A stretch of 56,474 nt of DNA from Bacteriovorax sp. BSW11_IV (GCF_000447755.1 NZ_AUNE01000049.1:1-56474); one strand, 5' to 3'; shown: positions 19,316 through 23,140, counted from the first letter of the stretch. Notes: a model not told the origin generated them from the sequence alone. Numbers and translations: made by a program.

Positions 19316-20881
19316 GTGAATAAATTGAAAATTTGTGATGAAATCATTTTAGGTGGTCACTTTAAAGGTGACATGTTCGATCTTTTCCAAGTTACAGGAG
19401 AAGATCGTACTCGTTATATGCAAGGCCAACTTACGGCCGATTTAAAATCAATTAGCTCTAATGAAGGCCTACTAAATACCCGTCTTACTCAGCACGGTAA
19501 GGTTGTTTCTTATTTGTATTATCTTGTTGGTACAAATTGCGATTATATGATTGTGCCGAAGGAAACTTCAGTAGTTTTAAAGAGTGATTTAGAGAAGTTT
19601 ATTATTATGGATGATGTTGAGATCACGACATCGACTAATAAAGCACAATTCTCATTTGGTCTTGAATCTTTTTCTAAAAAAGATGAGAACGATTTCAGGG
19701 TAAATATTTTTGATGAACCTGGAGTTATTAGTATTGTTGAAGAATATGAAGATTTAGAGTTCTTAGATGAAAACAAGCTTGAACAATATGCTGTTCTAAC
19801 CGGATATCCAGTCTGGAATAAAACAGTAAAAGAAAATGAATTCATTAATGATTCAAGATTAAATGAATTGGCCATTTCTTATAAGAAAGGGTGTTTTCTT
19901 GGACAAGAAACAGTTGCAAAAATTAATAATAATCGCGGTGCTGCCTACTATCCGACGCTATTAGAGTTTACTGAAGAAAATCAGATTTTTATTTCAGGAA
20001 ATATTCTAATGATTGAAGACCGTAAGGGTGGAGAAGTCATTGGGTCAACAGAAGTTGATGGAAAAAATTACGTCTTAGTTAAATTATATAGAGATTTCAG
20101 AGTTGATAAAAAGAAATTTGAAGTCTCTTTTGAAAATAAGAAATTTAAAGCTACAGTACACTATGCACCTTTGTTTGGTTCATTTGATAGAAATCAAAAG
20201 GCCGAATATTACTATGATCATGCTATTTCATTGTTTCAAAATGATGAAGAGCAAATGGCCCTGAAATATTTGTATGCTACAGTTCAATTGAAACCTGATT
20301 TTGCAGACGCTTATGAAGTCATTGGGGTTATATTAGGTCGCCATGAAAAATACAATGAAGGTATTGAGTATATGGATAAGCTTCTTGCCGTTGATGAATC
20401 TTCGGTAATGGCACATACAAATAAATCTCTCTATCTAATGAAGTTAGGAAAAATTGAAGAAGCAGAAGAACAAAAAAGTATGGCCACAGTAAAGACTTTC
20501 GAACGATTAGGTAAAGAAGCTGCTGCAAAAAGAGCGGCCGCTGACGAGGCCCAAAAAAGAAATGCTGAAATTGAAAGACGTGAATCAATGTTTAAACAGG
20601 TTTTAGAGATTGATGAGAATGACGTCTTGGCCAACTATGGTATGGCCGATATTTATTATTATAGGAAAAATTATACGGCCGCTATAGAACACTTAGATGT
20701 CGTGCTTGCTGAAGATGCTCAATACTCAAACGGCTATTACTTATTAGGAAAGTGTCTACTTGAAACAGGTGACACTGTTAGGGCCAAGGATGTTTTAGAG
20801 AAAGGTGTTGTTGTTGCCTCTAAAAGAGGGGACATGATGCCAGCAAATGGCATGCAGTCCCTACTTAATTCTATCAATTAA
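19316..20881 (+). CDS. YgfZ/GcvT-like folate-binding protein fused to a TPR domain
   Basis: A 521-residue fusion. Residues 1-285 resemble YgfZ/IBA57, tetrahydrofolate-dependent Fe-S maturation factors. They include MQGQLTADL near the N-terminus and the family signature KGCFLGQETV (about 197-206). From about 300 to 520 there are tetratricopeptide-like helices (AISLFQNDEEQMALKYLYATVQLKPDFADAYEVIGVIL and so on), broken by a charged Ala/Lys/Arg/Glu helix (about 400-425). The GTG start directly abuts the IscA-type stop. Typical YgfZ ends near 325 residues, so the TPR tail is extra. It convergently overlaps the HExxH gene by four bases. Confidence 0.85.
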   Translation: MNKLKICDEIILGGHFKGDMFDLFQVTGEDRTRYMQGQLTADLKSISSNEGLLNTRLTQHGKVVSYLYYLVGTNCDYMIVPKETSVVLKSDLEKFIIMDDVEITTSTNKAQFSFGLESFSKKDENDFRVNIFDEPGVISIVEEYEDLEFLDENKLEQYAVLTGYPVWNKTVKENEFINDSRLNELAISYKKGCFLGQETVAKINNNRGAAYYPTLLEFTEENQIFISGNILMIEDRKGGEVIGSTEVDGKNYVLVKLYRDFRVDKKKFEVSFENKKFKATVHYAPLFGSFDRNQKAEYYYDHAISLFQNDEEQMALKYLYATVQLKPDFADAYEVIGVILGRHEKYNEGIEYMDKLLAVDESSVMAHTNKSLYLMKLGKIEEAEEQKSMATVKTFERLGKEAAAKRAAADEAQKRNAEIERRESMFKQVLEIDENDVLANYGMADIYYYRKNYTAAIEHLDVVLAEDAQYSNGYYLLGKCLLETGDTVRAKDVLEKGVVVASKRGDMMPANGMQSLLNSIN

Positions 20882-22338
20882 TCATTTAAAGAATAATGAG
20901 CACGTTTTTCTTTTAAAGTTTCTACGAGCTCATTAATTTCTTTACCAGATTCAGGATCTTGCTCTAGAAGAGTTTTATGAATCGCAGTAATTCCATCTTT
21001 CATTTGCTCAATCAAATTATAAATTGAAAGAATAAGATTGTTACCTTCTGGTGAGACCTTACCATTTTCAAAAGCATGTTCAAGATCAAGAGCACAGTAC
21101 GTGAGCATATAGTACTCTTCTACAGCTCTTCTTTTAACTTTAAGCTTTTCTTCTTTTGTAAACTTATAGAAAGCATCTAATTTTCCGGTCGTAATCGCCG
21201 CATCTAATTCATGAAATAGATTAAGCGCCCAGTAAAATGTAAAGACAGCGTGGTAGATTCCTCGAATAGGTCTTAAAGCTCTTCGCCATGGACTATAGTA
21301 GATCTTCTCATCGTCTTCAAAGATAAGTTCTGTATAGTTAAGAAAAGTATTTAAATAGTGGTGACCATTCTCATGAAGAAGGTCATCCATTAAATCAACG
21401 AAGTCTCTTTCAAACATATTGATTGAAGAGAACCCTGGAAGCGATTGCATTGAGAAACTAACAATCCCTGGTTCGTTCACAGGAACTATAGAGTGAGTGA
21501 AACTCATGAATGTATCTAAAAGTCCTGGATTAGAGTCACCGATCAGTTTAAGTGCTAATCCAATTTTCTCTTTGAATTCAATTTCTCTTTTTCTTCCCTC
21601 TTCACAGATTGGAAGAAGAAAAATTCTATGTTCACCAACAGTGATATAGTCGTGATTTTCACGAATAGGTACTTCGTAAAGATCAGTATTGATCTCTACT
21701 TCGAATCCTTGGCGTTGCTCAAAAACACTTTTTAGGGCAATACTAGGATAAATATCAGAAGGCTCTGGAAAATCAGCAATACGATGTTGTTCACCAATAT
21801 ACATACGCTCTGGTGAATCACCAATTTCTGGAATGACATTATAAAGAATAACATCTTTTAGTTCATGGTGAGTTGAAGCAATATGCAAATAGTAAAAACT
21901 TAAGATTTGATTTTCTAGGATAGTTAGCAGATTCGATGATGCTTCAATAATATTGTTGCTCTCATCTAACATCTCAAGAAATGATTGCGCCATTTCTGAA
22001 TCATTCCAAAAATTAAATAATTCATCTTCTGATTCTGAGAATTCGAAGTCAGACTCATCCTCTTCAGCTTCTTGAATTTCATCATGTAATTGAACAACGT
22101 AAATGAGATTCTCAAGAAGTGTTGTCCAATAGAAATTGAAAGAAGTGTAGTTATTAAGAGCAGGGTCCTTAATGATTTTTGCTAGGCCTTGAAGGAATTC
22201 TTTTGAAAGGTGTTCCGTTTCAAATCCCTGTGCCATATCCTCTCGGATATCCTGAATAAGGTCTTTGTAGTTAGCAACAACATTAGCTTTAATGTCTTTA
22301 TGAAACTTTGAAGAACAAATATTCTTTGCTGTAATCAT
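20878..22338 (-). CDS. HExxH protein resembling aKG-HExxH peptide beta-hydroxylases
   Basis: A 486-residue protein. The ATG at 22338 is used; the frame is open further upstream but runs into tRNA-Asn. The N-terminal ~270 residues are helical and acidic. A metal-site motif HENGH lies at 322-326 after NEPGIVSFSMQSLP. Then YYSPWRRALRPIRGIYHAVFTF (347-368) supplies a possible third ligand, His363. That order (PG strand, HExxH, Y-PWR-x-x-x-RP, H) matches the HExxH domain of putative peptide-modifying enzymes, some shown to be Fe(II)/2-oxoglutarate peptide hydroxylases. No precursor peptide, radical SAM or exporter gene is adjacent. A zinc protease is the alternative. Confidence 0.6.
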   Translation of the reverse strand: MITAKNICSSKFHKDIKANVVANYKDLIQDIREDMAQGFETEHLSKEFLQGLAKIIKDPALNNYTSFNFYWTTLLENLIYVVQLHDEIQEAEEDESDFEFSESEDELFNFWNDSEMAQSFLEMLDESNNIIEASSNLLTILENQILSFYYLHIASTHHELKDVILYNVIPEIGDSPERMYIGEQHRIADFPEPSDIYPSIALKSVFEQRQGFEVEINTDLYEVPIRENHDYITVGEHRIFLLPICEEGRKREIEFKEKIGLALKLIGDSNPGLLDTFMSFTHSIVPVNEPGIVSFSMQSLPGFSSINMFERDFVDLMDDLLHENGHHYLNTFLNYTELIFEDDEKIYYSPWRRALRPIRGIYHAVFTFYWALNLFHELDAAITTGKLDAFYKFTKEEKLKVKRRAVEEYYMLTYCALDLEHAFENGKVSPEGNNLILSIYNLIEQMKDGITAIHKTLLEQDPESGKEINELVETLKEKRAHYSLND

Positions 22339-22376
22339 GGAATTTCTCTTGAATTTGTAAGGGTGAGGATAAGAAG

Positions 22377-22451
22377 TGGCTGGGGTGGCCGGATTCGAAC
22401 CGGCGACCAACGGATTAACAGTCCGCTGCGCTACCGCTGCGCCACACCCCA
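22377..22451 (-). tRNA. tRNA-Asn (anticodon GTT)
   Basis: A 75-base cloverleaf on the minus strand with a 7-bp acceptor stem (TGGGGTG/CACCCCA), anticodon loop CTGTTAA, a TTCGAAT T-loop and an encoded 3' CCA. It lies 38 bases upstream of the HExxH gene on the same strand, so read-through from the tRNA promoter could reach that gene. Confidence 0.96.
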
Positions 22452-22498: not shown

Positions 22499-22624
22499 GC
22501 CCCTTTTTAGAAAAAAGTGGGCCGTCTATAACTTGTTGAAATATTTGCAAATAAAGGATGTTTACGTAAAGTTTTTAGAAGGAATAACCGATAGGTTTGG
22601 TAAGCTATTATTGTGGGAAATTTT

Positions 22625-23140
22625 ATGGCCGCTACTAACATTTTAATGGATATTTTTAGGCTTTTGACTCCTGAGGAGATCAATAAGCTTACGACAAGTT
22701 CCATTGGGGATAAACGAGTCTCTTTAACAGAGATGATGACTCGCTACGATCATGGAGAGATTCCTGTTAGTGAAGAGGGCGCAAAAATTCTGCCTTTCAA
22801 AAAACCAGGGGCCCAAGAAGAAGTTGTCGAAGAAGAGAAAATTAGACTCGAATTCTTTGCTGGCGCCGAAGTTCAAAAATATTTAGATCATTACTTTGAA
22901 AAGGCCAAAATCAATGAAAGTTATGGTGATGCTAAAAGTTCCAAATTTATGGATACAGCTAGCTTTATTATAAATGAGAAGAAGCGATTTAATTACTCTC
23001 AAACAAAGTTAAAAGGTGCGGAAGTATTAAAGCTGTATCGAAAAAATTCATCAGTCGATATAGAACAAGAGCGTAAGCTGAAAGACGATATGTCAAAATC
23101 AGCTCAGGTCGGCGTTCTTGTGAATAAGAAGCAATATTAA
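22625..23140 (+). CDS. hypothetical protein, helical
   Basis: No family is recognised. The product has about 171 residues, is mostly helical and rich in Lys/Glu, and has no signal peptide. It starts MAATNILMDIFRLLTPEEINKL, followed by a proline-containing link ILPFKKPGAQEEVV and a longer helical part ending QVGVLVNKKQY. ATG 22625 with GGGAA upstream is chosen over GTG 22613. It could be a small regulator or coiled-coil adaptor; nothing nearby points to a role. It ends at a bidirectional terminator shared with the arginine-catabolism operon. Confidence 0.7.
   Translation: MAATNILMDIFRLLTPEEINKLTTSSIGDKRVSLTEMMTRYDHGEIPVSEEGAKILPFKKPGAQEEVVEEEKIRLEFFAGAEVQKYLDHYFEKAKINESYGDAKSSKFMDTASFIINEKKRFNYSQTKLKGAEVLKLYRKNSSVDIEQERKLKDDMSKSAQVGVLVNKKQY

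Follow-up and report, generated by a model that had tools for sequence, protein, structure and literature searches.

Organization of the locus

The window, that is the whole stretch of 56,474 nucleotides from Bacteriovorax sp. BSW11_IV that was analysed, carries on its minus strand an aKG-HExxH-type gene, whose product is termed P0001, directly behind tRNA-Asn. The features of the locus are the following, numbered from the first nucleotide of the window:

22377..22451, minus strand: tRNA-Asn (GTT), called by ARAGORN
22339..22376, minus strand: 38-nt spacer from the tRNA 3' end to the ATG, without a terminator or a promoter-like match
20878..22338, minus strand: aKG-HExxH-type predicted oxygenase gene (P0001), 486 aa plus stop, ATG at 22338 and stop at 20878
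21604..22338, minus strand: N-terminal part, residues 1–245, an acidic helical bundle to about residue 155, then beta-rich at 164–241; probable substrate-recognition part
20881..21603, minus strand: catalytic part, residues 246–486, with the TIGR04267 match at 262–374
21358..21375, minus strand: HENGHH, residues 322–327, two candidate metal-binding His plus Glu; in 81/81 intact homologues; aligns with HEHRH of 8s5f
21268..21294, minus strand: SPWRRALRP, residues 349–357, with R352 and R356 as candidate 2-oxoglutarate-binding arginines
21250..21252, minus strand: His363, candidate third metal ligand; Gln in SjiH
19316..20881, plus strand: YgfZ-like protein with C-terminal TPR, convergent to the oxygenase gene with a 4-nt overlap of the ends; conserved syntenic neighbour

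Translation of P0001 places P301-G302, HENGH (322–326), YYSPWRRALRP (347–357) and H363 where the sequence-only reading had put them, and its open reading frame is likewise correct. The protein is acidic, with a pI of 4.7 overall and 4.3 for residues 1–160. The neighbours in the window comprise a methylmalonyl-CoA-type mutase, ATR, FHA, IscA, the YgfZ-like TPR protein, an aldehyde dehydrogenase and AstA. Across the Bacteriovoracia the gene is flanked by a common block of the aldehyde dehydrogenase, AstA and a 175-aa protein together with the convergent YgfZ-like protein, IscA, FHA, ATR and the mutase, and the adjacency of tRNA and gene is thus vertically inherited. The YgfZ-like protein displays by eye a KGCFLGQE signature, is fused to TPR repeats and lies directly behind the IscA-type gene family-wide. 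The 175-aa protein (22613–23140 in the window) belongs to no Pfam family and is kept at this place family-wide, remaining beside tRNA-Asn in most genomes that have lost the oxygenase gene. An exclusive tie of the latter to YgfZ or IscA was rejected, as intact copies exist with neither gene at the locus (L039, L042).

P0001 belongs to the aKG-HExxH family

A search against NCBIfam returned a single match for P0001, TIGR04267 (mod_HExxH, aKG-HExxH-type peptide beta-hydroxylase), with 64.6 bits and an E-value of 1.1e-17 over residues 262–374, well over the curated cut-off of 40 bits; the genomic reading of the gene scores 67.3 bits. No Pfam family, including no peptidase, was matched at E-values up to 1. 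In the PDB, sequence matches were obtained to 8s5f, the HExxH domain of ChlH (E 3.9e-10), and to 22nu, SjiH (E 3.5e-6). The hallmark residues of TIGR04267 are all present in P0001, namely H322/E323/H326, SPWR at 349–352, R356-P357 and H363, and they are invariant or nearly so among homologues. In the alignment with 8s5f the HExxH, the SPWR and the LRP with the next His are all in register. H363 is a likely third metal ligand; the assignment goes no further than likely because SjiH carries Gln at this position. As read from sequence, the residue pattern is not due to chance, since it is scored at 64.6 bits by TIGR04267 and 81 of 81 intact homologues retain HENGHH, R352, R356 and H363 wherever the alignment covers them. 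On the curated model, the PDB sequence matches and the fold described below, P0001 is a member of the aKG-HExxH family, and the resemblance proposed by the sequence-only reading is borne out.

Predicted structure of P0001

The AlphaFold2 model of P0001, computed with 19 homologues, has a pLDDT of 93.1 and a pTM of 0.90. Foldseek retrieved five significant PDB chains with this model, every one of them from 22ob or 8s5f. To our knowledge, ChlH and SjiH are the only relatives of P0001 with a solved structure. The predicted model superposes in VIA-align on 8s5f (ChlH) with a Z of 23.3 over 293 residues and on 22ob (SjiH) with a Z of 21.1, whereby 365 of 409 residues are superposed on model residues 1–473. 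SjiH thus presents the most similar full-length arrangement, although it is 14% identical to P0001. The identity to ChlH amounts to ~20%, and P0001, in contrast to the radical-SAM-fused ChlB-HExxH from which this domain derives (TIGR04267/IPR026337), displays neither a radical SAM fusion nor a cyclophane precursor; its subfamily is further distinguished by HEN(G/S)HH and by the invariant R404, E407 and E408. Common to ChlH and P0001 are the catalytic blocks, the fold and the predicted Fe(II)/2-oxoglutarate chemistry.

The catalytic part can provide at most ~228 of the 365 residues aligned to SjiH. At least 137 therefore fall in the N-terminal half, which thus has a counterpart in SjiH. When this half was modelled alone (pLDDT 90.5) no significant Foldseek match was obtained, the top-scoring structure, a helical bundle with a Z of 8.2, was at background level and the known aKG-HExxH chains were absent from the candidates. 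Since nothing significant is found by the half itself, its counterpart in the solved aKG-HExxH structures, as judged from the model, appears to be very divergent, and its kinship is drawn solely from the full-length superposition. The N-terminal half had been described as acidic, helical and unrecognised; the description stands for the isolated half, which has no convincing match, but not for the full-length model, in which it is superposable on a divergent counterpart.

The fold also recalls zincins, and PflC acts as a peptide hydrolase if deprived of its leader peptide (PMC12636437), such that P0001 could be conceived as a metallopeptidase using HExxH hydrolytically. M1 aminopeptidases do appear in the structural comparison, at a Z of ~7, but this is background level, the next entry after the two aKG-HExxH enzymes reaching 8.4. 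The far better match to aKG-HExxH structures, the lack of any Pfam peptidase match and the agreement of the conserved SPWR..RP..H block with TIGR04267 make hydrolysis quite improbable. The match to a zinc protease family that had been named beforehand as refuting did not arise.

Distribution and conservation

The source genome contains one TIGR04267 match. Within the Bacteriovoracia, its own family, the family profile matches in 59 of 77 genomes, or 56 of the 73 of good quality, leaving 17 of the latter without the gene; the rest of the phylum (293 genomes sampled) gave only two weak matches. Scanning a contig collection with a single sequence recovered no relatives, and these were found when the scan was made with an alignment. 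The named records belong to Bacteriovoracaceae, Halobacteriovoraceae and the like, and one match, L208, is a Nitrospira MAG, with 71.7 bits to TIGR04267, above the cut-off. In the Nitrospira family to which the genome of L208 belongs, a whole-genome profile search matched 158 of 175 genomes, mostly full-length; a pattern scan that required HENGHHxLN had missed nearly all of these, which mostly read HENSHH. The gene is thus not the orphan that had been proposed, but a vertically inherited single-copy core gene, near-universal in two unrelated bacterial groups.

The copies of the Nitrospira type group together in a single supported clade with a long branch and retain SPWRR, RP and H next to HENSHH (HENGHH in L208). 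HEN(G/S)HH, SPWR, R356 and H363 are kept across the copies of both groups, and in a mixed alignment of 32 sequences 33 positions of P0001 are kept in at least 97%. Among the 81 intact homologues, the residues invariant where the column is present are V293, S294, S296, P301, S304, N307, R311, D318 and D319, together with HENGHH, SPWR, R356, R359, G360, H363, T367, F368, R404, E407 and E408.

The named relatives come from groups known for predators, which would suit modification of a prey protein, also raised by the sequence-only reading, or a secreted predation factor. Such a role is nevertheless highly improbable: a rough check detected in P0001 no long hydrophobic stretch of the kind expected for a membrane anchor or signal peptide (mean hydropathy ~1.0 over the best 19 residues), and the subfamily is equally core in the Nitrospiraceae, which are non-predators.

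The oxygenase gene is dispensable, because 17 of the 73 good family genomes do without it and one genus has a motif-less copy only. In this genus (g23; L048, L130 and L131) HENGHH, SPWR and H363 are all lost together. A long open frame persists behind tRNA-Asn in two of the three species (9268–10746 in L048; 17 nt behind tRNA-Asn in L130) and the copy of L131 is split. These copies no longer score against TIGR04267, the locus has lost YgfZ and IscA as well, and the gene is either a pseudoenzyme or decaying. The full-length motif-less copy offers a built-in comparison.

More distant aKG-HExxH-like proteins occur in the phylum in unrelated contexts (L049, L050, L051); that of L050 carries SPWSGNAIP in place of SPWR..RP and is below the TIGR04267 cut-off.

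Genomic neighbourhood and natural-product enzymes

The characterised aKG-HExxH enzymes in the literature searched are natural-product enzymes. They oxidise RiPP precursors, by beta-hydroxylation of His, Asp, Phe, Gln and Pro and, for PosC/PflC, by oxidative backbone cleavage (PMC12636437, PMC13060819). Some of them, PflC/PosC and PesO, are stand-alone proteins, to which P0001 is likened by annotation; these are encoded in RiPP clusters with a precursor, an MNIO and a transporter, which the gene of P0001 does not have. P0001 could likewise act as a RiPP beta-hydroxylase together with a precursor and partners from other loci of the genome, and the source genome (G000) does contain one strong MNIO match (PF05114) on another contig (C14, 27145–27921). 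This is unlikely for a single-copy core gene that has different neighbours in the two groups and no RiPP genes adjoining it. The window holds no RiPP precursor, radical SAM enzyme or exporter, as the sequence-only reading had observed, and the convergent neighbour takes up the space in which a downstream precursor would have to be encoded. RiPP genes were likewise absent next to the gene in the loci of the family and in the 21 loci of the Nitrospira type that were inspected. In addition, the MNIO is missing from 7 of 14 sampled genomes with an intact gene and the source genome has no match to a SPASM radical SAM enzyme.

The members in these two groups constitute a new core subfamily of predicted aKG-HExxH oxygenases outside natural-product clusters. 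That such a single-copy core subfamily occurs in two unrelated groups without RiPP genes points to an additional use of the fold in housekeeping protein oxidation.

As partners, MNIO, SPASM radical SAM and JmjC_2 proteins were rejected, their phylogenetic profiles not tracking the presence and absence of the gene. NFACT was rejected for the Bacteriovoracia, where it gave sub-threshold matches only, which do not track the gene either.

Linkage to tRNA-Asn and expression

Nearly all genomes searched have a single clear match to tRNA-Asn, the exceptions being the source genome, with a second match 77% identical, G089 with two, one of them called tRNA-Gln by ARAGORN, and two genomes with none. Linkage was counted over 75 distinct loci in which tRNA-Asn and the gene are both present. 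The start codon lies within 140 nt of tRNA-Asn on the same strand in 63 of them; 0.5–4.7 kb separate the two in the other 12, and the gap at L131 is due to the gene being split there. Two classes of spacer can be distinguished. The first (33 of 64 loci) has the ATG 5–21 nt past the tRNA CCA, many reading GCCA-CTTTTT-ATG, and displays no Shine-Dalgarno-like (SD-like) site (0/33). The second (31 of 64) has at least 37 nt, with an SD-like site in 16 of the 31. The tree displays 12 or more switches between these classes.

The gene of the window, 38 nt behind tRNA-Asn with no terminator-like or promoter-like site found in the spacer, fits the layout of a mixed tRNA-mRNA unit, being on the same strand, at short distance and without a terminator. 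Hairpin terminators were detected behind tRNA-Asn at 2 of 63 gene-adjacent loci, compared with 6 of the 14 loci without the gene (Fisher p 2.9e-4, relatedness ignored). This difference supports co-transcription of the gene with tRNA-Asn by read-through, which the sequence-only reading had put forward and which the comparison of spacers also favours.

The linkage could instead be passive synteny, the gene having its own expression signals. Conservation extends over the entire block, from the mutase through to AstA, an SD-like site is present in about half of the longer spacers, one lineage has a terminator between tRNA and gene and in another the gene has been relocated to a site apart from the tRNA. 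In contrast, the tight spacers in 33 of 64 loci are too short to accommodate a promoter behind the tRNA, no promoter-like match is found in the 38-nt spacer and terminators are commoner after tRNA-Asn when the gene is absent, rendering independent expression a doubtful, though still sizeable, alternative to read-through. The tRNA linkage was rejected as independent proof of function: because it sits in a family-wide syntenic block, adjacency alone is no evidence of it.

The two gene-adjacent loci with a terminator represent one lineage, L036/L156. In L036, L149 and L156 the intrinsic terminator (AAAAGCCACC..GGTGGCTTTT) lies between tRNA-Asn and the gene, ~15–18 nt before the start codon, and no promoter could fit between; the gene is arranged as though expressed by leak through the terminator. 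A gene with a guanylate/adenylate-cyclase domain follows directly.

The site just behind tRNA-Asn is also a repeated insertion point, where differing genes were put before the oxygenase gene in separate lineages (L031, L043, L046, L152, L157, L181, L194, L199, L201, L203 and L204), independently in all eight of the eight placed on the tree.

In species with tight spacers, 3' processing of the tRNA may leave a leaderless or nearly leaderless message, a layout predicted for the 33 of 64 loci of the first class but not for the gene of the window, whose spacer measures 38 nt. The tRNA precursors released endonucleolytically by RNase E (PMC4191395) and the leaderless mRNAs whose translation begins at or near the 5' end (PMC3848588) are precedents, although the end predicted here would come from tRNA maturation and not from a promoter. 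As judged from the arrangement of the genes, this family-wide, often leaderless-looking tRNA-mRNA organization is new. The recurrent tRNA-CCA-(5–21 nt)-ATG layout, lost and regained in many lineages, would constitute a natural system for making translatable mRNA from a tRNA precursor.

Proposed function and mechanism

With its family, fold, conservation, distribution, tRNA linkage and lack of a terminator established computationally, we infer that P0001 is an Fe(II)/2-oxoglutarate oxygenase that modifies one endogenous cellular protein and is co-transcribed with tRNA-Asn, a reading to which a probability of about 0.6 is assigned. A mononuclear non-haem iron would be held by H322, H326 and probably H363, and 2-oxoglutarate probably by the arginines of SPWR..RP. 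The N-terminal helical and beta part would present a peptide segment for oxidation, most likely hydroxylation at the beta carbon. A conserved cellular substrate, in place of a natural product, is the most economical reading because no RiPP gene lies beside the gene and MNIO and SPASM proteins are scattered independently of it; the single-copy core status points to one endogenous protein as the most likely target. In the Bacteriovoracia the gene would be the second cistron of the tRNA-Asn transcript, and in about half of the lineages tRNA 3' processing would leave a leaderless mRNA.

A substrate in the translation apparatus is a tentative lead, suggested by three independent contexts. These are tRNA-Asn itself, an ABC-F type ATPase closely downstream in the relocated clade in which the gene lies away from the tRNA (L047, L162, L165, L184), and NFACT (RqcH-type), which adjoins the gene divergently in 20 of the 21 loci of the Nitrospira type, also at those with differing genes further out. 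The three contexts could coincide by chance. For such a substrate the ribosomal oxygenases YcfD/RoxA (JmjC_2; PMC5862935) would provide an analogy of bacterial Fe(II)/2-oxoglutarate protein hydroxylation, although they have another family and motif, and JmjC_2 genes occur independently of the P0001 gene. The most elaborate version is a long shot: a translation-protein oxygenase that has the zincin-like aKG-HExxH fold and not a JmjC/cupin one as its scaffold, made from a leaderless mRNA cut from the tRNA-Asn precursor by 3' processing, its output thereby tied to that of tRNA-Asn. If it were true, the tRNA-Asn, ABC-F and NFACT/RqcH contexts would mirror the target of the enzyme.

Further genes accompany the oxygenase gene in these settings. 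Upstream of it, the relocated clade has genes for an ArsC/Spx-like protein and for a lysine-rich protein resembling histone H1. In 13 Nitrospira-type loci (L208, L241, L243, L244, L248 and L252–L259) a zinc-ribbon-like gene of ~75 aa, with CxxC..CxxC, lies between NFACT and the oxygenase gene and is co-directional with the latter.
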